DNA of 35,579 nt from the IMG/VR virus record IMGVR_UViG_3300034198_020821, positions 1-35,579 of that record; one strand, 5' to 3'. The notes beneath the pieces are model-generated. The model worked only from the letters and a program-made list of their open reading frames with translations. It was not told the origin of the DNA and ran no database searches. The translations under genes and the position numbers were made by a program. Below, in pieces: positions 1 to 34,865 of this stretch (the first letter of the stretch is position 1; each line of letters begins with the position of its first letter). The DNA is from a virus.

Positions 1-87
1 GCTGCTCCTGTTTGCTCAGCTGCTCCATCTTCTCCCGTTGTTCAGGGGTCAGGCTGACGGCCACGGTATTGTTCTTTTTCTCAGTCA
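1..87. repeat. 87-bp terminal direct repeat, left copy (contig overlap)
   Basis: Bases 1-87 are identical to bases 35493-35579. An exact short repeat at both ends of a contig is the usual mark of an assembled circle, so the sequence after base 35579 continues at base 88. The repeat carries the 5' part of a leftward ribbon-helix-helix gene. A genuine phage terminal repeat is possible, but T7-type terminal repeats are usually longer and lie beside early promoters or packaging signals. Confidence 0.9.
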
Positions 88-393
88 GGAGATTTGGCTC
101 TCCTTGTAGGACTGTTTACGATAACAGGGGATGCAAACCATCTGCCCGATGGTGTTGGGGTACAGGTATTTGAGGGGTAACGCCTGCTCACAGTGGCCGC
201 AAGGGATCTGGGCTTCCAGATTGGCGTTGGGGTGAATGTAATTGTCCAGGTCCTGGCGGTGGATCAGGTATCGGTCGGCCACTAGGACCACGCTGGGGAA
301 CTTCCCGGCCTCACGCAATTTGTGAACCCATGCCCTGGAGCGGTTCAGCTTTTTTGCGATATCTGAAATGGTAAGCCAGTCCTTAAAATTCAA
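85..393 (-). CDS. HTH (excisionase/MerR-like) plus zinc-ribbon protein, 102 aa
   Basis: A leftward gene with a TTG start preceded by GAGG about nine bases upstream. Residues 8-52 look like a short MerR/excisionase-type winged helix: an ISDIAKKL helix, a recognition helix ending in KLREAGKFP, then an RYLIHRQDLDNY wing. The C-terminal half has a zinc-ribbon pattern with C65-x2-C68 and C87-x2-C90. The fold suggests a DNA-binding regulator or recombination directionality factor, which would fit a genome carrying a serine recombinase; that role is inference. It lies directly downstream of the 28-bp site at 419-446. Its stop codon overlaps the start region of the ribbon-helix-helix gene that continues across the contig join. 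Confidence 0.75.
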   Translation of the reverse strand: MNFKDWLTISDIAKKLNRSRAWVHKLREAGKFPSVVLVADRYLIHRQDLDNYIHPNANLEAQIPCGHCEQALPLKYLYPNTIGQMVCIPCYRKQSYKESQIS

Positions 394-659
394 GGATTAA
401 AACCTCTTAATTGAACCGGGTTCAACAACCAGTTGATTGATGAACCACTTGTGCCGCTCATGTAAACCAGACTAACCGTGGTCGCGTTTCGGGTCAAACA
501 AAAAGCGATCCATGTAAATTTTTTTTGTCAATTAGACTGAATTATTAATGTTTAAAAACATGAGTAGACAAGGGGATTCATGGGTTTAAAGTAAAGTTTA
601 CAATCATACACAACAAGATCAGTGTACGCTTGTCACCCTTGACAAGCTCAAAAATTGTT
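394..659. other. Intergenic control region between two leftward genes
   Basis: This 266-base stretch has no convincing gene. It holds a perfect 15-bp palindrome at 411-425, the 28-bp site at 419-446, an AT-rich run with a small inverted repeat at 548-561 (ATGTTT and AAACAT arms), and a rightward promoter candidate with a conserved 16-bp box at 622-666. The box runs into a perfect 8-bp inverted repeat (GCTTGTCA, four bases, TGACAAGC; 628-647), a plausible operator. Confidence 0.6.
419..446 (+). repeat. 28-bp dyad site, copy 1 (candidate recombination site or operator)
   Basis: Two 13-bp arms, GGTTCAACAACCA and TGATTGATGAACC, surround the 2-bp core GT. Eleven of 13 arm positions are related by two-fold symmetry. 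The exact reverse complement of all 28 bases lies at 6324-6351, and the match stops sharply at both ends. Crossover sites of small serine recombinases (hix, res subsite I) have this size and design. A repressor operator would also be symmetric, but would not need identity at the asymmetric positions. Confidence 0.75.
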
Positions 660-666
660 TTATTTT
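622..666 (+). promoter_or_regulatory. Promoter candidate A with conserved 16-bp box
   Basis: The box GTGTACGCTTGTCACC (622-637) is followed by a perfect -35 TTGACA at 639-644, a 16-base spacer and TATTTT at 661-666 (4 of 6 to consensus). The same box occurs upstream of the terminase genes at 7306-7321 and, with three changes, of the tail fibre at 24307-24322. Here it would fire antisense to the leftward gene at 660-1247. Confidence 0.5.
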
Positions 667-1247
667 CCCCAGGTGATTAATCGCTGCCAGAGTGATGGAG
701 CCCCGTCTGTCTTGACTGGGGCATATTCAACCTGTTCTGTCACTTTGTTAATGTTGGCATCCGCCTTACCAGAGCTTAACAACAACATGCCGCGCATGGT
801 GTTAACTTCGCTTTCTTTGGCGGCAATGGTTTGGTCTTTGGCCTCCAGGGCCTGGGCGGTCAGTTCTCTTTCCCGAATCAGCATGTCTTCCAGTTGTTGT
901 ATACGCTTGTCTTTCTCGTTAACCAGTTGTTGCCAAGTGCTGTCCGCTGGGCTGTGAATAGCTTCGTCAATTTGCGGCAAGTGGTCGTTAACATTGACGT
1001 CGATTGATGACGCTGTTGTTGTGTGCTTTTGTTCGCGCTTGGTTTTCTCCTCCTGGCGCTGCTCCACGTAGCTACGGGGCACGGAGTAGATGGTGGTTCC
1101 GGCAAAGCCTGGACGACTACGCCAGCTGCCTTTTTTCTGGTCTTTGTAGAAGGTGGTGCGGCTGACCCCTAATTTCTCTTCCGCCTCAGACCCCAGCATC
1201 TCGATGTATTCAACGCCGTCAATCAGGATGTATTCGTTGTCGTCCAT
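660..1247 (-). CDS. DNA-binding protein with N-terminal HTH and long coiled coil (KfrA-like architecture)
   Basis: A 195-residue leftward gene with its ATG at 1247 and a weak AAGGGA upstream. Residues 15-60 form a winged-helix-like region (AEEKLGVSRTTFYKDQ, then a wing ending in SVPRSYVEQ). From about residue 95 to 160 the protein is a heptad-rich coiled coil. The layout of HTH head plus coiled-coil tail resembles plasmid KfrA-type proteins and some phage and plasmid regulators or partition factors. No family-defining motif was recognised, so the function is open. It lies next to the initiator candidate and under antisense promoter candidate A, which would suit a role in copy control or maintenance (inference). 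Confidence 0.7.
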   Translation of the reverse strand: MDDNEYILIDGVEYIEMLGSEAEEKLGVSRTTFYKDQKKGSWRSRPGFAGTTIYSVPRSYVEQRQEEKTKREQKHTTTASSIDVNVNDHLPQIDEAIHSPADSTWQQLVNEKDKRIQQLEDMLIRERELTAQALEAKDQTIAAKESEVNTMRGMLLLSSGKADANINKVTEQVEYAPVKTDGAPSLWQRLITWGK

Positions 1248-1394
1248 TGGCAGGGGTTCCCTTCTGTTGTGATGTATGGTTTACTCAAATTGTTGTTAAC
1301 GCTTACTTAAGTTGTTGACAATGTGCGCAAACAGTGTACCATGATCGATCATCGGGCGTTTACGGATAGAGACAAAGCCCTTTGATTGAATATC

Positions 1395-1430
1395 AAAAAC
1401 CCTCGGCGCATGAAGCGATCCGAGGGTAAA
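1395..1430 (-). terminator. Leftward rho-independent terminator
   Basis: The arms ACCCTCGG (1399-1406) and CCGAGGGT (1420-1427) pair perfectly. Read leftward, the stem is followed by five U (complement of AAAAA at 1395-1399). It would stop leftward transcription before the gene that starts at 1247. Confidence 0.7.
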
Positions 1431-1509
1431 AAGAAAATCTTGTTGGAATCAGCTTATCACGCCGTATTGTTGCTGGCAAGCTGGTGGTGAAAGGCTTTTA
1501 AATTTTGAA

Positions 1510-1551
1510 GGTTCAACAAACCCTGCCTACCAAATTAATCTTTTTTGAACC
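1510..1551. repeat. Accessory half-sites related to the 28-bp site
   Basis: GGTTCAACAAACC (1510-1522) matches the left arm of the 28-bp site apart from one inserted or changed base. An inverted TGAACC lies at 1546-1551, giving a dyad with a longer spacer. Such stretched dyads occur as accessory subsites of resolvases, and also as weaker operators. Confidence 0.4.
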
Positions 1552-1664
1552 GTTGACGGGATCGGGTGGTCGTGGTTATTCTGAAATAGAACCGTTTTTG
1601 TTGAATAAACGATCTTCATAGTAAACAGCGAGGAGAGGTACCCATCATGTAGCGCTTTCAAACT

Positions 1665-1710
1665 CAATAAAAAACCCCCGACTGCTAAGAACAGCGAGGG
1701 TTTTAAAATC
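1665..1710 (-). terminator. Bidirectional terminator, stronger leftward
   Basis: The arms AAAACCCCCG (1671-1680) and CGAGGGTTTT (1695-1704) pair with one mismatch. Read leftward, the stem is followed by TTTTTTATTG; read rightward, by TTTTAAAATC. It sits about 100 bases before the initiator candidate's start and about 20 bases after the start-stop minigene, so it could also attenuate the initiator transcript. Confidence 0.6.
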
Positions 1711-1802
1711 AAAAAAGTTTAAGAACTATGCGTAGCATTCTAGCACGGGCAACGTACCCGGTGCAAGTATTTTGTTGCGCGTGGTTAGAGAGGAGTTTTT
1801 CC

Positions 1803-2405
1803 GTGGAACAAGCTGCTGTTTGGCAGAGTATTTTGGCTGCGTTTTGCGCCCGTATGGGGGATTGTCTAGCCGCGCGAATGGTGCGCGATGAAGTGAGCCT
1901 GGAGGCGCTGGAAGGCGACCGGGCAAAGCTGGCTGCTAGTTCTGGCTATTGGGCTACCCAGTTGGGCCGAAAGCATCGGGGAGACTTGCTGGCTGCGTTT
2001 GCCCAAGTGCTAGGCCGGGAAGTGCGTCTGGAAATTTTTGTAAAATCGCCTATTAATAATATTAATAATAATTATAATTTAAATATTAATTCTAGGTTAG
2101 ATAGTAGTAGAGAGGTTTTATTAGAAGAAAATAATATTAATATTATTAATCGGGACTATTCTGGTTTAAGGGCTAAAATCCACTCTGACCCTGTGTTTCT
2201 GGAGGTTCAAAGCTGGGGAGTTGACGCCCCGTTTATTTATGCGGCGGTTCGAGATAACGGAGAGGCTGCTGTTAAAGGGGTGGTCCAGCGTTTAAAGAAA
2301 CTGGCAGATTCCTACTTCCGGCAATGGGAATCTATCCCGCATCAGCGCGGGCGTTTATTTAACGTTGAAATGAAAAAACTCAAGGCGGCTAAAAGGTCAT
2401 TGTGA
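1803..2405 (+). CDS. Replication initiator candidate with DnaA domain-I-like N terminus, 200 aa
   Basis: GTG at 1803 is chosen because AGAGGAG lies seven bases upstream; the open frame extends further but has no ribosome site there. Residues 5-80 match the pattern of DnaA N-terminal domain I: a WQSILAAF helix, VSLEALEGDRAKLAA strands, a helix with WATQLGRKHRGDLLAAF, then GREVRLEIFV. That domain binds DnaB or DnaA partners. An Asn/Ile linker (about 83-115) follows, then a helical, basic C-terminal domain of about 80 residues. No AAA+ ATPase motif is present. It is the only rightward gene in the early region and its linker-coding DNA is extremely AT-rich and palindromic, as in phages whose origin lies inside the initiator gene. 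DNA binding by the C terminus is inferred. Confidence 0.65.
   Translation: MEQAAVWQSILAAFCARMGDCLAARMVRDEVSLEALEGDRAKLAASSGYWATQLGRKHRGDLLAAFAQVLGREVRLEIFVKSPINNINNNYNLNINSRLDSSREVLLEENNINIINRDYSGLRAKIHSDPVFLEVQSWGVDAPFIYAAVRDNGEAAVKGVVQRLKKLADSYFRQWESIPHQRGRLFNVEMKKLKAAKRSL
2050..2150. other. AT-rich palindromic tract inside the initiator gene (origin candidate)
   Basis: This 100-base tract is almost only A and T. It holds an exact 18-bp palindrome at 2130-2147 (AATAATATT followed by AATATTATT) and an inverted copy pair, ATTAATAATATTAAT (about 2053) against ATTAATATTATTAAT (2136-2150). It would melt easily and lies in the linker region of a DnaA-domain gene, so a DNA-unwinding element is a reasonable guess. 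No clear iteron array was found. Confidence 0.45.
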
Positions 2406-2410
2406 AAGAA

Positions 2411-2641
2411 TTAATCTTGCGGCAGTATTTTGGAAGGGCTTTCATGCAGGTATTTCAACCAGTCCAGTTTTGTGCGGGCGGAGCAATGGGCTACCGCGTC
2501 TTGTGCCGTTGGATATCGTCCGTGCTTGCGTTTGAACCAAACTTGATAGTGGACGGTATTCACTTGATGGGGCTCGTGGTACTCGTGGAAAATTCCGCAC
2601 TGCGGGCAGATACCTTCAGGGAGTGGAAATAGTAAAATCAC
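2411..2641 (-). CDS. Small Cys/His-rich protein, 76 aa
   Basis: The GTG start at 2641 is supported by AAGGAG seven bases upstream. The protein has an N-terminal CPQCG followed by H19, H22 and H25 and a later VAHC, so it may bind zinc. The C-terminal half (KRKHGRYPTAQDAVAHCSARTKLDWL) is basic and helical. No family was recognised. Its 3' end nearly abuts the 3' end of the initiator gene (2405), so the two are convergent. A reading frame on the opposite strand over the same bases lacks a ribosome site and is judged a shadow. Confidence 0.6.
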   Translation of the reverse strand: MILLFPLPEGICPQCGIFHEYHEPHQVNTVHYQVWFKRKHGRYPTAQDAVAHCSARTKLDWLKYLHESPSKILPQD

Positions 2642-2705
2642 AAACTTGCTCCTTTCTTTGGTTCTTGGTTATTTTAATTATCCTCGCAAAAAAAAACACA
2701 TTTAT

Positions 2706-2734
2706 GCCCTGCCGTTATTGGCAGGGCTTTTTTT
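2706..2734 (+). terminator. Rightward terminator
   Basis: The arms GCCCTGCC (2706-2713) and GGCAGGGC (2720-2727) pair perfectly around a six-base loop, followed by seven T. It would end the rightward initiator transcript that began upstream of 1803. It overlaps the 3' end of the leftward gene at 2715-2915. Confidence 0.8.
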
Positions 2735-2915
2735 GTGCGTCTTGTTCGGCTTGTGATTCTATCCAGTCGGCCAGCCATCCGCGCGGTTTTGAGTTGAGCC
2801 ATTGCTTGGCGGCTGGGCTTATTTTGCCGCTGAAGGTTTCGGACCGCTTGGCCGCCCCTTTGGTGGTTCCTGGGGGGCGGCCGGGGTGGCGCTTGGGCTG
2901 TGGTTTACTGTCCAA
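2715..2915 (-). CDS. Small basic protein with AT-hook-like motif, 66 aa
   Basis: TTG at 2915 is the chosen start because GGAGG lies six bases upstream. It overlaps the end of the preceding gene by 11 bases, which suggests coupled translation. The N terminus is very basic with RHPGRPPGT, an AT-hook-like GRP core. Residues 28-58 (SGKISPAAKQWLNSKPRGWLADW) look like a strand plus two helices. A DNA-binding role is plausible, but no family is recognised. Confidence 0.55.
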   Translation of the reverse strand: MDSKPQPKRHPGRPPGTTKGAAKRSETFSGKISPAAKQWLNSKPRGWLADWIESQAEQDAQKKPCQ

Positions 2916-3090
2916 ATTGCGCCTCCAGCATTTGTTTTACTGCCTCAAACGCTTCTTGCGCATCTGCTTCGGAGCAATCGCCCAGATCGATCCATTCCGT
3001 ATGGATTCGTGGAGGGTCAAGCCAGGCCAGTTTGACGTTTATCCCATATTGATTGCCATTTTTGGTCATTGTCGATTGATTATCAAACAT
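2905..3090 (-). CDS. Hypothetical small acidic protein, 61 aa
   Basis: ATG at 3090 is chosen because AGGGG (3101-3105) lies ten bases upstream; an in-frame TTG at 3111 is also possible. The protein has a short strand region (YGINVKLAWL) and a C-terminal helix (EADAQEAFEAVKQMLEAQ). No family was recognised. Its ribosome-binding region lies within a 20-bp tandem duplication (3093-3132) that also covers the end of the upstream gene. Confidence 0.5.
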   Translation of the reverse strand: MFDNQSTMTKNGNQYGINVKLAWLDPPRIHTEWIDLGDCSEADAQEAFEAVKQMLEAQFGQ

Positions 3091-3092
3091 TT

Positions 3093-3132
3093 CAAATAAA
3101 CCCCTAACCAATCAAATAAACCCCTAACCAAA
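3093..3132. repeat. Two tandem 20-bp units
   Basis: The unit CAAATAAACCCCTAACCAAT occurs at 3093-3112 and again at 3113-3132 with one change at the last base. The left unit supplies the Shine-Dalgarno of the gene starting at 3090 and the right unit holds the stop codon of the gene ending at 3124. It looks like a recent slippage duplication of a gene boundary. Confidence 0.85.
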
Positions 3133-3441
3133 CTTCGCAACGAGTGCTTCGGCTTCTGTGATAGCTTCGGCGTAGTCAGTCAAATCATCTTCCTCAAATC
3201 CGGCTTCAATGGCTTGTTCTTTGTGCGCTTTCAGAGCTTCCGCTTCGTTGGATACATTGAAACCCGAATAAGCGGTGTCATAATCATCGCAGTGGCGAAC
3301 CCAGAAGCAGATTTCAGCGTTTTCATCCTCTCTCAGAATCTGGTACTGGTCATAATTGAATTGGCCTTTCAGAACCTTGAAAGAACCGATATTCAGAGCG
3401 TCACTGGTATCTACTGCTTGGTTATATTCTAAAGTTGCCAT
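3124..3441 (-). CDS. Hypothetical acidic protein, 105 aa
   Basis: ATG at 3441 follows an AAAGGAAA ribosome site. The protein is acidic, with a strand-rich N-terminal part (GSFKVLKGQFNYDQYQILREDENAEICFWV) and a C-terminal Glu/Ala helix. No signal peptide, membrane segment or family motif was seen. It is the first gene after a leftward terminator at 3483-3516, so it probably has its own promoter in the AT-rich 3440-3480 stretch or depends on readthrough. Confidence 0.6.
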   Translation of the reverse strand: MATLEYNQAVDTSDALNIGSFKVLKGQFNYDQYQILREDENAEICFWVRHCDDYDTAYSGFNVSNEAEALKAHKEQAIEAGFEEDDLTDYAEAITEAEALVAKFG

Positions 3442-3482
3442 TGTCTCTATTTCCTTTGGGCGCTGCCCTTAACTGTAATACT

Positions 3483-3516
3483 AAAAAGCCGTCGGCGGGT
3501 CGAAACGCTAACGGCT
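3483..3516 (-). terminator. Leftward terminator candidate
   Basis: The arms AGCCGT (3487-3492) and ACGGCT (3511-3516) are separated by 18 bases that can pair partly. Read leftward, the stem is followed by TTTTTAG. It separates the recombinase/XRE operon from the downstream small genes. Confidence 0.55.
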
Positions 3517-3562
3517 CTCGTTTCATGCTTGCAAGTATTAAAGCACGACTTTAATTAAAAGG

Positions 3563-3715
3563 TCAAGGTTTATTTTCAAAAGCCTTTATAATGGCCTCTA
3601 TCAATGGTTTTAAGAATGTTTCCATGTATATTTTTTCAAATTCTTCAATGCCTGTTGGGCGTTGTGAATTTCTGAAAGTTATTTCAGTGGCTGTCATTGG
3701 GGTGTTTTCTGGCAA
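3563..3715 (-). CDS. Hypothetical small protein, 50 aa
   Basis: TTG at 3715 is preceded by a perfect GGAGG seven bases upstream, which is the main support for this gene. The product contains TEITFRNSQRPTGIEEF, then a long amphipathic helix (LKPLIEAIIKAFENKP). No family was recognised. It follows the gene ending at 3731 by 15 bases and is probably the last gene of the leftward control operon, just before the terminator at 3483-3516. Confidence 0.55.
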   Translation of the reverse strand: MPENTPMTATEITFRNSQRPTGIEEFEKIYMETFLKPLIEAIIKAFENKP

Positions 3716-3730
3716 GATTAATCCTCCAGG

Positions 3731-3934
3731 TCAAGGGATGAATTTGGAAAGCTCAAGATTGGGCCAATCCTCGTTGTGGACAATGATTGTGGGTGATATA
3801 TCACGGTAGGTGAAATCGATTTCTTTGTCTTTCCCAAGTGTGACTCTTACATCGTTGTTTTTTAAATTTTTTTCGATGGTAAGGTGTGACTGTAGCTCTT
3901 TCAGGTAGGCTTTTCTGATAGCTTCCGGGGTCAT
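3731..3934 (-). CDS. Hypothetical protein, 67 aa
   Basis: ATG at 3934 lies directly after the XRE gene (ends 3938) with GGAGG upstream. The N terminus is helical (PEAIRKAYLKELQSHLTIEKNL) and the rest is mixed (DVRVTLGKDKEIDFTYRDI). No domain was recognised. Its place directly behind the XRE regulator, in the same operon, would suit a regulator partner, but this is inference. Confidence 0.55.
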   Translation of the reverse strand: MTPEAIRKAYLKELQSHLTIEKNLKNNDVRVTLGKDKEIDFTYRDISPTIIVHNEDWPNLELSKFIP

Positions 3935-3937
3935 AGT

Positions 3938-4180
3938 TTAATCCTCCTGTTCGGGTGGGTGCTGGAGTTGTAGGTTGTCGATGGCGCGCACCAGATTGAT
4001 CATGGTCTTGATGTGTTCGCTCTTGCGCCATTCCCCGCGCTCCCATCGGCTGATGCGGGTGCGGGAAATGCCCAGGATGTTGGCCAAGTCCTCCTGCTTC
4101 ATGTTCGCCCTGGTGCGGATGTCCTGAAGGGCGGCCAGCTTTTCCTCCAGGTCGAGGATGAAATAATCCGGTAATTCCAT
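3938..4180 (-). CDS. XRE-family HTH transcriptional regulator, 80 aa
   Basis: Residues 13-70 form a Cro/C1-type HTH: LAALQDIRTRANMKQEDLAN, then ILGISRTRISRWERGEW, where the second helix and the SRWERGE signature are typical. It is a small regulator without a dimerisation or protease domain, the size of many phage Cro-like repressors. It is three bases from the upstream membrane-protein gene and one gene from the serine recombinase, so all three are probably co-transcribed. Likely targets are the dyad sites of this genome (5997-6013 or the 28-bp sites), which the sequence cannot decide. Confidence 0.85.
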   Translation of the reverse strand: MELPDYFILDLEEKLAALQDIRTRANMKQEDLANILGISRTRISRWERGEWRKSEHIKTMINLVRAIDNLQLQHPPEQED

Positions 4181-4183
4181 GGG

Positions 4184-4360
4184 TCAGCCTTTGCTTTGCT
4201 TGTTTTGAGTTATATAATACACGACCCAAAGGTTTACCATAGCGGTGAGGGGCGGGGCTATGAGTGCCCACTTGCCCCGCCAGATTTGAAACAGTATTAC
4301 CAGGACCTCGATGCCCATGCCTGCCCGGTATAATTTTTTTAAGTCATTTTGTTCAGGCAT
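4184..4360 (-). CDS. Small membrane protein between recombinase and XRE gene, 58 aa
   Basis: ATG at 4360 overlaps the recombinase stop (the shared run is ATGCCTGA), which favours coupled translation. The product has a polar N terminus, a hydrophobic stretch (residues 14-27, GMGIEVLVILFQIW), a basic turn, then a second one (33-52, LIAPPLTAMVNLWVVYYI) and a Lys/Gln-rich tail. It is therefore a probable two-pass membrane protein. The function is unknown; small membrane proteins beside phage regulators sometimes act in exclusion or holin control, which is only a possibility here. Confidence 0.6.
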   Translation of the reverse strand: MPEQNDLKKLYRAGMGIEVLVILFQIWRGKWALIAPPLTAMVNLWVVYYITQNKQSKG

Positions 4361-4994
4361 TGGCGGAAATCTTTCTTTTGTTCAATTCATCCGGGGCGTG
4401 TTCGTTCAGGATTTTGTAAACTGTGCCCACGGCGCACCCCGCTTTTTTGGCGATGATTTTGAGCGGGATGTTCTCCTGACTCATCTCCAGAATCTGATCG
4501 ATGAGCTCCGGCTTGTAATGCACGGCCGGGCGGCCCAGGGTTTTTCCCTGCGCCCTGGCTCGGGCCAGTCCCTCCATGACTTTCTCCACGGTGCTCTCCC
4601 GCTCATATTGGGCGAAAGCCCCCAGAAGGTGATAAAACAGGCGCCCGGCCGGGGTGCTGGTGTTTAAATCCTCGGTCATTGAAAACAGGTTGACGCTGTT
4701 TTTCTTGAGCACTTCATCCGTAAAGTAAATTAAGTCCTTCAAGCTCCGGCCAATGCGGCTTAAGGACCAAAAGGCCACCATATCCACCTTGCGGCGGTGG
4801 ATATGGTCTATCATGCGTTGGAAGCCGGGGCGCTGGTTGGTTTTACCACTAAATCCCCAATCCCGGTAAACCCCCACAATGTCCCAGCCGTGATATTCGG
4901 CGGCCTTGCGAAGGGCCATAAACTGGTTCAAATTGGTCTGGTTACGGGTGCTGACCCGGACGTAAATATAAACGCGTGGGCGGCGCTCTGGCAT
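4353..4994 (-). CDS. Small serine recombinase (resolvase/invertase family), 213 aa
   Basis: The protein has the full resolvase layout. The nucleophile S15 lies in YVRVSTRNQ, and the catalytic region holds D71 and R80/R83/S84 in WSLSRIGRSLKD. A long helix follows (GAFAQYERESTVEKVMEGLARARAQG), then the GRP linker, and a C-terminal HTH (about 160-203, ENIPLKIIAKKAGCAVGTVYKIL). The length is typical of TnpR, Hin and Gin enzymes rather than large phage serine integrases. Such enzymes resolve or invert DNA at roughly 26-28-bp dyad sites, and two identical inverted 28-bp dyads flank this gene at 419-446 and 6324-6351. Inversion of the control module or dimer resolution are the candidate roles. Confidence 0.92.
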   Translation of the reverse strand: MPERRPRVYIYVRVSTRNQTNLNQFMALRKAAEYHGWDIVGVYRDWGFSGKTNQRPGFQRMIDHIHRRKVDMVAFWSLSRIGRSLKDLIYFTDEVLKKNSVNLFSMTEDLNTSTPAGRLFYHLLGAFAQYERESTVEKVMEGLARARAQGKTLGRPAVHYKPELIDQILEMSQENIPLKIIAKKAGCAVGTVYKILNEHAPDELNKRKISANA

Positions 4995-4996
4995 TT

Positions 4997-5203
4997 TTAT
5001 TTCCCCTCTTGGTTGATTAATTTGGTAAGTTCACGGGTTCTCTGGTCCACTCTGGCCACCGCTTCCCTGTGGGCCTGCTGCATGGCCGGGGGCATCTGGG
5101 CCAGCCGCCAGCTGCTAATTTCTGACAAAGCCGACAGCATCAAGCGGCATGTGCGCAGCTCTTTTTGGTGCTCATCCTTTTGGGCGATATCTTGATTAGC
5201 CAT
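4997..5203 (-). CDS. Hypothetical helical protein, 68 aa
   Basis: ATG at 5203 overlaps the end of the previous gene (5196) and the stop is two bases before the recombinase start. The product is Arg/Gln-rich and predicted fully helical, with a possible coiled coil in residues 10-60 (KELRTCRLMLSALSEISSW and QAHREAVARVDQRTREL). No family was recognised. The tight spacing shows it belongs to the recombinase operon. Confidence 0.55.
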   Translation of the reverse strand: MANQDIAQKDEHQKELRTCRLMLSALSEISSWRLAQMPPAMQQAHREAVARVDQRTRELTKLINQEGK

Positions 5204-5384
5204 AGGTTAACCCTGCCCGGTGTAATTTATCAATGAGTTCCCGCAGTTCGTCCAGGCATTTGTTGGCCAGCGTGGGCCGCCCGTTTTTGTAAGCGGTGTA
5301 ATAGGCTGTCTTTCCCTTGGCGTTGGACACGGGTTGGATGGTGTAACCGTGTAAAATCATGGGGCTGTCAGGGCTGGCGCTCAT
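5196..5384 (-). CDS. Hypothetical protein, 62 aa
   Basis: ATG at 5384 overlaps the stop of the TPR-like gene in an ATGA junction. The product begins with a strand-like segment (MILHGYTIQPVSNAKGKTAYYTAYKNGRPTL with alternating aromatic residues) and ends in a helix (CLDELRELIDKLHRAG). This beta-beta-alpha pattern recalls small AP2-like or integrase arm-binding-like domains, but no specific family is claimed. Confidence 0.55.
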   Translation of the reverse strand: MSASPDSPMILHGYTIQPVSNAKGKTAYYTAYKNGRPTLANKCLDELRELIDKLHRAGLTYG

Positions 5385-5707
5385 TGGGCTTTCCTCCGTT
5401 GTTCGCTGCGCAGGTTCAGGGTCTCGTGGTAATAATCGGCGGCCTCACTGGTCCGGTTCAGCATGTAGCAAACATCGGCTTTCAGCTCATAGGCTTCATC
5501 ATTGCGGCTGTTCAGTTCTAAGGCGATATCAATCAGCCATTCTGAGCGCTGGAAGTCACCCGCAATGAAAGCCTCACGGGATAAATCGACCATCATGCGG
5601 TCAGTGACCACGGCGGGCGGCGCGCCCCGTTTTTTTAGGGGTTTAACGCCTCTGGGCTGAAACTGGAGGAACTGCAATAGTCCGGGTTTTTGGCTCTGGT
5701 GGGTCAT
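5381..5707 (-). CDS. TPR-like protein, 108 aa
   Basis: ATG at 5707 is chosen because AAAGGAAA lies about seven bases upstream. Residues 47-100 form one to two tetratricopeptide-like repeats: AFIAGDFQRSEWLIDIALEL, then DEAYELKADVCYMLNRTSEAADYY, with the usual Gly/Ala and Tyr positions. The N-terminal 40 residues are basic and unstructured-looking. TPR units mediate protein contacts, so the protein is probably an adaptor for a host or phage partner; no enzyme motif is present. It is followed by the two small genes that lead into the recombinase. Confidence 0.65.
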   Translation of the reverse strand: MTHQSQKPGLLQFLQFQPRGVKPLKKRGAPPAVVTDRMMVDLSREAFIAGDFQRSEWLIDIALELNSRNDEAYELKADVCYMLNRTSEAADYYHETLNLRSEQRRKAQ

Positions 5708-5815
5708 AACAAGATTTCCTTTCACTTTTTGATTTCTCGGTTATAATCGCGTTTTTTAATTTATTTATAGAGAGATATAGATATAGATTTAGTTATGGGG
5801 GGTATGGGGGGAGAT

Positions 5816-5971
5816 TTAGCTTCTGGTGTCGTACAGGCTCGGGTCGATGATGTCCGCAAGCTCTAGCTGTTCCAGCAGCTTAACGGCCCACTGTCTGGCC
5901 TCTGTCTCTTTTCCACATTGCTTGTACGCCATTGCCTTGGCTAAAGCCCGATTGATTTCTGTTCTGTCCAT
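5816..5971 (-). CDS. Hypothetical helical protein, 51 aa; first gene of the leftward control operon
   Basis: ATG at 5971 has GAAAGG about seven bases upstream. The product (starting MDRTEINRALAKAMAYKQCG, ending IIDPSLYDTRS) looks like a helical hairpin with TPR-like spacing in ALAKAMAYKQCGKETEARQ. No family was recognised. It is the first gene downstream of the palindromic operator candidate at 5997-6013. A 108-base AT-rich gap follows, which may hold a second leftward promoter for the TPR-like gene. Confidence 0.55.
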   Translation of the reverse strand: MDRTEINRALAKAMAYKQCGKETEARQWAVKLLEQLELADIIDPSLYDTRS

Positions 5972-5996
5972 GGGGTGCCTTTCTGTTGGTCTACTT

Positions 5997-6013
5997 TGTG
6001 CGTTTAACGCACA
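5997..6013. promoter_or_regulatory. Perfect dyad operator candidate
   Basis: TGTGCGTT, one central T, then AACGCACA form a perfect 17-base dyad, 26 bases upstream of the first gene of the leftward operon. Its size and position fit a repressor site, and the XRE regulator of the same operon is the obvious candidate ligand. Confidence 0.55.
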
Positions 6014-6225
6014 TTAAACAACATCTTGCATGAGCTTGGCCGTGTTGTCAACTGTTGGTTTTGTGAATCGGTGAAAACCCTTGCAGGAGATCGCTTTAGG
6101 TTGTCTGTGGTTGTCACCTGCCAATGGCTGAGCTTCGTTTTCATGGGGTAATTCTTGAAAATTGGCTGGGGGAACTGTTAGGGACTGATTCAGCGGGTTA
6201 GGTATCGGCTCGCGCATGTGTGGCT

Positions 6226-6242
6226 GGGCTCGGGCGGGTGGG
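6226..6242 (+). other. Potential G-quadruplex
   Basis: Four GGG tracts are separated by loops of three, one and one bases (GGG CTC GGG C GGG T GGG). Short loops favour a stable quadruplex on the + strand. It lies about 80 bases from the second 28-bp site. Confidence 0.55.
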
Positions 6243-6323
6243 TTGACGGGTCCGGCTGGGCGTCTGGGGTGATTTCTGCGGCGTCCTGGCTGGGTGGACG
6301 GGGTAAGTTTGCGGGGGTTTCTG

Positions 6324-6351
6324 GGTTCATCAATCAACTGGTTGTTGAACC
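6324..6351 (-). repeat. 28-bp dyad site, copy 2 (inverted relative to copy 1)
   Basis: Read on the + strand, the arms are GGTTCATCAATCA and TGGTTGTTGAACC around the core AC, the exact reverse complement of 419-446. The flanks are unrelated, so the conserved unit is exactly 28 bp. A related half-site GGGTTTGTTGAACCC lies 60 bases to the right at 6411-6425. Together with copy 1 it brackets the serine recombinase and the control module. Confidence 0.75.
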
Positions 6352-6479
6352 TTGCCGGATGGGATGGGTTCGGGTGGATTTTACGGGCATTTCCGGGGTG
6401 CTTTTTCTGGGGGTTTGTTGAACCCTGATGCAGCCCTGATTTTTCCACGGGCCAGATGGATTATCAAGTGAGTCCTATT

Positions 6480-6551
6480 TTCGCGCGCGCGACCCCCACC
6501 CCCTTTGACGCGCGCCCGGGCGGGGGTACCCGCGAGGCGCGGACGCGCGAA
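6480..6551. other. GC-rich nested hairpin
   Basis: Outer arms TTCGCGCG (6480-6487) and CGCGCGAA (6544-6551) pair perfectly. Inner arms ACCCCCACCC (6492-6501) and GGGCGGGGGT (6518-6527) pair with one mismatch. The element is far more GC-rich than its surroundings and lies ahead of the packaging genes. A packaging or replication signal, or a structured RNA leader, are possible. Confidence 0.55.
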
Positions 6552-7290: not shown

Positions 7291-7305
7291 TCCAAAATCG
7301 GCTCG

Positions 7306-7350
7306 GTGTACGCTTGTCACCTTGTCAGTTTAAAACCTAACCCCTAGAAT
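7306..7350 (+). promoter_or_regulatory. Promoter B: conserved box, -35 and -10, for the terminase/head operon
   Basis: GTGTACGCTTGTCACC (7306-7321) abuts TTGTCA (7322-7327), followed by exactly 17 bases and TAGAAT (7345-7350). Both hexamers match consensus in five of six positions. Transcription would start about 7357, at the start codon of the first terminase small gene, giving a leaderless or nearly leaderless message. Confidence 0.7.
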
Positions 7351-13184: not shown

Positions 13185-13226
13185 ATACCGGTGATAGTTG
13201 TCACTACCACCGGTATATTTTTTTAT
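13185..13226 (+). terminator. Strong terminator between scaffold and capsid genes
   Basis: The arms ATACCGGTG (13185-13193) and CACCGGTAT (13208-13216) pair perfectly, with an inner TAGT/ACTA stem, followed by ATTTTTTTA. It should reduce readthrough into the capsid gene unless it is suppressed, or unless the capsid has its own promoter in the 165 bases that follow. A second hairpin lies at 13250-13273. It could equally act as a 3' stabiliser. Confidence 0.85.
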
Positions 13227-30941: not shown

Positions 30942-31367
30942 TTATTTGCTGATGGTGACTTGGCCGTGGCGGATGGCCACGTTGACCCGGCCCAGGTAGG
31001 ACATGCCCAGCAGGCCGCACAACATGGGGTCCTCCGGGATGGGCATCACCAAAGCGGGCACATTCTTGACCTCCACCCCTTCCACGCTAATGGAACGCAA
31101 GGTGACGCGGGGCAAGGTGCGTTGCCCTTCGGCGGTGGTGATGGTGACCCGTGGGGTGTCCTCGGTCACTTCCACCTTGAGGAGTTTGGCCATCTCCGGG
31201 GAGATGGTGGCATAGGTGCTGCCGGTGTCCAGGATGAATGTGCCGATGGCCTGATGGTTGATCATGGCTCGGGTAAGCAGGGAGTTTTCAACCTGATTAA
31301 ATAGTTCCTCAGCCGGGGCTGGCTGCCCCAGTAAGGATAGGAAAATAAAGATTCCCCACAGTTTCAT
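30942..31367 (-). CDS. Secreted retropepsin-like aspartic protease, 141 aa
   Basis: ATG at 31367 overlaps the upstream stop (ATGA). Residues 1-19 are a classical signal peptide (KLWGIFIFLSLLG, then PAPA), so the product should be in the periplasm. Residues 30-140 match the clan AA TIGR02281-like retropepsin fold: a flap-strand region, FILDTGSTYATIS with catalytic D47-T48-G49-S50, TITTAEGQ as the flap, and CGLLGMSYLGRVNV as the hydrophobic GLLGxxFL signature. Such enzymes act as homodimers sharing two aspartates. A secreted protease of this kind in a phage early operon is unusual, and the substrate is unknown. The gene is coupled to a membrane-anchored coiled-coil gene. Confidence 0.82.
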   Translation of the reverse strand: MKLWGIFIFLSLLGQPAPAEELFNQVENSLLTRAMINHQAIGTFILDTGSTYATISPEMAKLLKVEVTEDTPRVTITTAEGQRTLPRVTLRSISVEGVEVKNVPALVMPIPEDPMLCGLLGMSYLGRVNVAIRHGQVTISK

Positions 31368-31855
31368 AGGCCACCCCCTAAAACGGCGGCGCAAATGGCG
31401 GCCAGTAGCAAGGTAAGCGTGGCGATGAAATAGGCTTTGTTCTCCTGGGAGAGGCGGCGGATTTTGCGATCCTGCTCGTGGTTGGTTTGCACCAGTTCGT
31501 GGTTGTTTTGCTCCAGCGCCTGGATGGCCCCGTTCAGATCGGCAATGGTATGCTCGGCCTCTTCCAGTTCCTTGCAAAGTTGCTGGTCCAGTTGGATGCT
31601 GGCCGGGCTGAGGGCTTTGTAGGTGAGGTCAATATAGCTGCGCTCTGGGCCGTGTTGGGCGCTCACGTCCACAATTTTAAAATAGTCGGCGGAGTTGCTC
31701 ATGTTTTCAAAAGCGCCCTGAAGGTAACGTGCAATGAACACTAGTCCGCCTGCCATGGGGTTTGCTGCATAGGGATCGAGGGAGATGCGCTGGCGTAGCA
31801 GTTGCTCAGGCACGTCAAAGACGCGGGCGGCGCTGAGAAGCTTGGCGATTTTCAT
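31364..31855 (-). CDS. Coiled-coil protein with C-terminal membrane anchor, 163 aa
   Basis: ATG at 31855 follows AAGGA and starts two bases after the previous stop. Residues 1-85 are a globular N-terminal region, 88-138 a strong coiled coil (LDQQLCKELEEAEHTIADLNGAIQALEQNNHEL), and 140-162 a C-terminal transmembrane helix (YFIATLTLLLAAICAAVLGG). The bulk of the protein should face the cytoplasm. Coupled translation with the secreted aspartic protease suggests a paired function at the inner membrane, such as superinfection exclusion or remodelling. The function is not established. Confidence 0.65.
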   Translation of the reverse strand: MKIAKLLSAARVFDVPEQLLRQRISLDPYAANPMAGGLVFIARYLQGAFENMSNSADYFKIVDVSAQHGPERSYIDLTYKALSPASIQLDQQLCKELEEAEHTIADLNGAIQALEQNNHELVQTNHEQDRKIRRLSQENKAYFIATLTLLLAAICAAVLGGGL

Positions 31856-34754: not shown

Positions 34755-34781
34755 GGCATGTTACCTCGTGCAAACAATAGC

Positions 34782-34857
34782 CTCCCCCTCCAGGGTTCGA
34801 ACCTGGAACCGCTAGCACCTTATAGGGTGGCCGCTCTACCGATTGAGCTAAAGGGGA
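34782..34857 (-). tRNA. tRNA-like gene with atypical 6-base anticodon loop (possible Ile-UAU)
   Basis: The acceptor arms TCCCCTT and AGGGGGA pair over seven positions (one G-U). The D-arm GCTC-AATCGGTA-GAGC and the T-arm CCAGG-TTCGAAC-CCTGG are perfect. The anticodon stem CCACC/GGTGC has four good pairs and one C-C mismatch, and encloses only CTATAA. That is what an Ile-UAU loop (CTTATAA) would look like after losing U33. The variable loop is eight bases, two bases link D-arm and anticodon stem, and no CCA is encoded. It may be a functional odd tRNA, a decayed one, or a tRNA-like RNA element. Confidence 0.65.
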
Positions 34858-34865
34858 GAAGGAAA

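Follow-up and report, generated by a model that had tools for sequence, protein, structure and literature searches.

Phage inversion switches, as far as they are known, mainly change host range by way of tail fibers. The closest described systems, Gin of phage Mu, Cin of phage P1, and Hin of Salmonella, switch tail fiber or flagellin genes and act on inverted short dyads with a 2-bp core (gix, cix, and hix) that bound a kilobase-scale segment. Site I of gamma-delta resolvase, another small serine recombinase, is 28 bp long. The hix sites are 26 bp (PMC3798978). Here, we compare with these systems a locus in IMG/VR virus record IMGVR_UViG_3300034198_020821, of which positions 1 to 35,579 (35,579 nucleotides) form the window, that is, the whole stretch of DNA analyzed. 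Two 28-bp dyads in inverted orientation flank a 5.9-kb segment that encodes a small serine recombinase; the segment is the control region of a phage, and no gene is fused at its ends. The reading we favor, at somewhat less than an even chance, is that the two dyads are crossover sites (site-I-like) of the phage's own recombinase. The features in question are:

419..446, + strand: left 28-bp dyad site, GGTTCAACAACCA-GT-TGATTGATGAACC, 26 bp upstream of the start of gene 85-393(-)
6324..6351, - strand: right 28-bp dyad site, an exact inverted copy, in the non-coding DNA that separates the early operon (leftward) from the late genes (rightward)
4353..4994, - strand: small serine recombinase of 213 amino acids (Resolvase N-domain, PF00239, plus HTH_7, PF02796)

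The original prediction described an exact reverse-complement pair with unrelated flanks, each copy made of two 13-bp arms around an asymmetric core, and this is borne out. The sites are complementary at 28/28 positions and form the longest inverted repeat of the record (the next-longest, at 24-25 nucleotides, are imperfect); their flanks are unrelated, and identity ends exactly at the dyad ends with no match beyond 28 bp. Each is a 13-2-13 dyad with 11 of 13 arm positions symmetric and a core that reads GT, or AC on the other copy. Genome-wide, one other 28-mer reaches the same symmetry (at 13187, inside the late block). The chance expectation for inverted pairs of at least 28 bp in sequence of this composition is 8e-9. 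A matched scan covered 1.58 Mb of DNA from other phage and plasmid loci and returned no inverted pair of 26-mers with an identity of 24/26 or better and a dyad of 8/12 or better in each copy. With a looser cut-off the same scan recovered P1 cixL/cixR, our positive control, and missed Mu gix because its arms are less symmetric. Intrinsic terminators can be ruled out at both sites, as neither is followed by a T-run. A dif/Xer-type 11-6-11 site was also considered on account of the 28-bp length; the arms do not match those of dif, and no tyrosine recombinase appeared in the scans made.

The enclosed gene is complete and encodes, as had been proposed, a small serine recombinase: PF00239 scores 140.8 bits and HTH_7 24.6 bits, both above cut-off, and the protein matches phrog_125, "DNA invertase." Among solved structures Gin comes top (96.7 bits), ahead of gamma-delta (53.7) and Tn3 (40.1). 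The protein has a length and domain order similar to Gin, Cin, and Hin, is 36-38% identical to Gin and Cin, and keeps the active-site residues R13, S15, Q19, R80, and R83; its catalytic half also resembles the larger serine recombinases TP901-1 and CcrB. The structure model contains a three-helix helix-turn-helix (HTH) at residues 161-199, with a predicted local distance difference test score (pLDDT) of ~80. In PHROG and Pfam scans of the larger open reading frames (ORFs), it is the sole site-specific recombinase seen, and general scans of the record gave no tyrosine integrase. The Tn3/gamma-delta and Sin resolvase (res) systems share with this locus the 28-bp size of the crossover dyad and the presence of extra half-sites at variable spacing, but here the copies are inverted, not direct, and the sequence score of the recombinase is lower.

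We favor crossover sites because the two copies are identical even in their asymmetric core, the dyad boundaries are sharp, the orientation is inverted, and a recombinase lies between them. A recombinase dimer would bind each 28-mer, the HTH contacting the outer GGTTCA, and would exchange strands at the 2-bp GT/AC core. Since the cores are inverted, pairing of the sites would flip the 5.9-kb control segment, which holds an initiator-like gene, the XRE regulator, and the recombinase operon, with respect to the replication operon (leftward) and the late genes (rightward). Binding to these sites, inversion, and any change in expression are what we infer from this architecture.

Several observations weigh against this reading. 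No coding sequence spans, is cut, or is fused at either site, so an inversion would re-orient whole units and fuse no genes. The ORF 6014-6448(-), which crosses the right site, was tried as an inversion-truncated gene and rejected as non-coding; its codon-usage score is -0.32, compared with +0.1 to +0.44 for in-frame reference genes. The recombinase gene is located mid-operon and adjoins neither site (the distance is 1.33 kb to the right one and 3.9 kb to the left one), whereas in the Gin, Cin, and Hin systems, which work with a Fis-bound recombinational enhancer, the recombinase adjoins a site (the Gin and Cin genes adjoin their invertible segments). In contrast to those systems, too, a second orientation is not seen, and the Asp of the DRLGR (D-R-x-x-R) motif, which is Asp in 13/13 of the serine recombinases first sampled, is Ser. 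Because the catalytic Ser and Arg residues are kept while this Asp is Ser, activity of the recombinase appears likely but not assured. Two Methylococcaceae plasmid homologues, both putative recombinases, likewise have Ser at this position, and a literature search for the role of Asp67 in Tn3 resolvase found no paper. As a separate observation, the Methylococcaceae plasmids L138 and L139 each encode two different small serine recombinases, one of which has Ser for the DRLGR Asp.

Strand composition bears on how often the segment could have inverted. On the + strand, the GC skew at third codon positions (GC3 skew) is +0.145 for leftward genes inside the segment (95% 0.07-0.22), +0.33 for the rightward gene inside, +0.18 (to three places, +0.179) for leftward genes outside, and +0.11 for the late genes. 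Its sign is the same for leftward and rightward genes, which ties it to the genome strand and not to the direction of coding. Had the segment been in each orientation equally often, its skew should be ~0; the value found equals that of the flanks, which indicates that the present orientation has prevailed for a long time, by this estimate at least ~70% of the time. The test is blind to a switch whose other orientation does not replicate. If inversion occurs, it is accordingly rare, or one orientation is non-replicating. The assembly, moreover, closed and circularized in one orientation, and a balanced mixture of orientations would be expected to branch it at both sites.

Relatives of the sites or of the module, a further point on this side, were not found in the IMG/VR, phage, and plasmid collections, which possibly do not include the records nearest to the window. 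The original prediction had suggested looking in related phages for the same 28-bp pair; the search was run in these collections and found no relative, and orientation could therefore not be compared. The exact 28-mer and 22-base patterns have zero matches in IMG/VR. The one bacterial-genome match (Lacibacter) is a transcription-terminator hairpin, and two loose matches sit in a terminase gene; we dismiss all three as chance. Relatives were gathered as 80 loci by the tail protein, plus relatives of the primase, and 64 records were searched for the recombinase, with matches in 7 (5 fetched as recombinase-encoding and 2 structural relatives matching weakly). The best homologues are from Methylococcaceae plasmids (43-44% over the catalytic domain), KS14, and Bandiella, and a comparable dyad pair is absent from the loci of all three, as it is from phages MEP301 and SI2.

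Lastly, the arm motif occurs in three separate control regions between genes (the left site, 1510-1551, and the right site), which is more than an inversion requires. The additional elements are:

1510..1522, + strand: isolated half-site GGTTCAACAAACC, 11/13 shared with the arm; makes a loose 42-bp dyad with TTTTTTGAACC at 1541-1551
6412..6424, - strand: isolated half-site GGTTCAACAAACC, 11/13 shared with the arm; exact inverted copy of 1510-1522 over 13 bp
411..425, no strand assigned: perfect palindrome TTGAACCgGGTTCAA (TTGAACC-g-GGTTCAA), overlapping the left site

The arm half-site GGTTCAACAA has four copies in the genome, two within the 28-mers, one at 1510, and one inverted at 6415-6424. 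In favor of crossover sites, these extra half-sites with their variable spacing resemble serine-recombinase accessory sites, which vary in spacing and half-site arrangement (PMC9943657).

A switch in frequent use is hard to reconcile with the skew, the single assembly, the half-sites, and the lack of a switched gene. A pair of crossover sites does fit the architecture, the inverted orientation, the uniqueness, and the enclosed recombinase. The phase switch of the control region in the original prediction is plausible, but we consider it unlikely that the segment works as one. Equally doubtful is the more specific proposal that inversion of this whole control and immunity segment, rather than of tail fibers, provides a heritable two-state switch, with one state replicating and the other silent or plasmid-like. 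The extra intergenic half-sites, the skew, and the single assembly favor either operators or a very rare switch.

Operators are the rival that survives best, possible though less probable than crossover sites. Here, the 28-mers and the isolated GGTTCAACAA half-sites would be bound by a phage DNA-binding regulator of the leftward and rightward transcription units, and nothing would invert. The most likely regulators would be the HTH_17 protein encoded at 85-393 and the protein encoded at 660-1247, or else the recombinase, acting as an autoregulator. The features relevant to this rival are:

85..393, - strand: gene immediately downstream of the left site; its HTH_17/excisionase-like DNA-binding product is a candidate for binding the operators or for an accessory role
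3938..4180, - strand: XRE (HTH_3) regulator of 80 amino acids, encoded in the leftward operon that also carries the recombinase
5997..6013, no strand assigned: 17-bp perfect palindrome TGTGCGTTTAACGCACA, upstream of 5816-5971(-); operator candidate distinct from the 28-mer
628..647, no strand assigned: dyad GCTTGTCACCCTTGACAAGC of a second motif family, belonging to a 19-bp element that recurs at 7303-7321

As with the operators of XRE/Cro-type phage repressors, a dyad motif is clustered at intergenic control regions, and each of its three clusters lies beside different transcription units. GGTTCAA is among the most over-represented 7-mers of control-region intergenic DNA; this DNA makes up 7% of the genome and holds 6/13 of the genome copies of TTGAACC/GGTTCAA (P ~1.6e-4), as well as 4/4 of those of TGTTGAACC. 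The lone recurrence of GGTTCAACAA at two other intergenic control spots suits operators. So does the position of the left site, which is separated from the TTG start of gene 85-393(-) by 26 bp that include the ribosome-binding site (RBS), and the skew fits as well, since no inversion is required. However, operators leave unexplained why the central 8 bp and two asymmetric arm positions are identical in both copies, the dyad spacing varies (28 bp, 42 bp, and single halves), and the 28-mers, with their conserved center, are longer than the usual 14-20 bp. Regulator operators were also the alternative that the original prediction allowed for. That alternative emerges as about as likely, with the half-sites at other intergenic regions in its favor, but the XRE protein appears, from sequence, to have better operator candidates elsewhere, namely, the TGTGCGTTTAACGCACA palindrome and the TTGTCACC sites. 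A promoter-like sequence, TTGACA-17-CAAGAT, adjoins that palindrome within 5997-6056, upstream of the XRE-containing operon, and the TTGTCACC motif, unrelated to the arm motif, is found at 628-647, 6111, and 7303-7327. Separately, a promoter-like 19-bp element, TCRGTGTACGCTTGTCACC, is present with 18/19 identity at 619-647, inside the control segment, and at 7303-7330, just before late gene 7358; it contains a TTGTCACC/TTGACAA dyad and is likely a shared operator or promoter.

A rather improbable rival is that the 28-mers act as RNA, as identical leader hairpins of two outward transcripts (the left site being transcribed leftward and the right site rightward) that serve antitermination or translation control. 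Such a pair would resemble lambda nutL/nutR or HK022 putL/putR, identical hairpin-forming elements that point outward from an immunity-like region; putL and putR lie downstream of PL and PR (PMC9378689). The nut and put pairs are inverted in the DNA for the same reason, and exact identity, loop included, would be expected. In the outward direction, the two copies fold into an identical 11-bp hairpin that has a U-U mismatch; its energies are -16.6 kcal/mol (z -2.5) at one copy and -17.2 kcal/mol (z -1.4) at the other, and the inward folds are much weaker (-8.8 and -8.4 kcal/mol); at the left site, an alternative TTGAACC/GGTTCAA hairpin beside the RBS overlaps that of the 28-mer. Every dyad folds, though, and the outward preference hangs on one C/T difference, so that chance alone would give it in 50% of cases. 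There is no match to an Rfam family, no boxA seen by eye, and no known antiterminator gene; put RNAs are ~70 nucleotides with two stems, as opposed to the single 28-nucleotide hairpin here, and the outward promoters are putative.

The weakest rival is that the recombinase binds the pair for another outcome, for instance to resolve multimers of a plasmid-like prophage at a res-like element, the second copy being regulatory. It can draw on the accessory-like half-sites and on what surrounds small serine recombinases elsewhere: genes for repressors or plasmid maintenance adjoin them in phage KS14, which has ParA and Rep genes, and in Methylococcaceae plasmids. We think it very improbable, given that resolution needs direct repeats and the 28-bp pair is inverted, that no res-type cluster of dyads lies beside the recombinase gene (none at 4181-4352), and that a ParA or partition gene was not found in the window.

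If the regulatory core does invert, a life-cycle decision would be fixed in the DNA itself, in a manner unlike the tail fiber switches. Should the dyads instead be operators or leader hairpins, the locus illustrates how closely sites for a regulator can resemble those for recombination, and that claims of inversion are usefully checked against strand-composition skew.

The record itself is a complete-looking virus of 35,492 bp, circular or circularly permuted because its ends overlap by 87 bp. It is of podovirus type, with a head-tail connector, T7-type tail tube proteins, and internal virion proteins, all rightward at 6845-30261. The leftward block runs from ~5971 through the circle junction to 30472 and holds a primase-helicase and a weakly DnaT-like gene. 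By structural genes, the closest cultured relatives are Methylophilales phage MEP301 and Dunaliella virus SI2 (~35-43%). The first gene of the leftward operon is 5816-5971(-), of 51 amino acids. The gene at 1803-2405, originally put forward as an initiator candidate, has neither a family match nor a confident structure model; its single-sequence AlphaFold model (pLDDT 41) was uninformative.

Some minor features of the genome are also worth recording. A phage tRNA gene at 34780-34858(-) has an abnormal anticodon loop (no clear anticodon by ARAGORN; Rfam tRNA, 43 bits), and the early block includes, at 30942-31577(-), a gene for a clan AA (retropepsin-like, TIGR02281) aspartic protease that scores 55.9 bits against a cut-off of 57.95. 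A perfect tandem 20-bp repeat, TCAAATAAACCCCTAACCAA, occupies 3092-3131, between or overlapping two small genes. Finally, close to the early/late divide, a G+C-rich run with CGCGCG tracts (6480-6545) and a long stretch of G-rich non-coding DNA (6200-6545) mark a possible origin or packaging signal.

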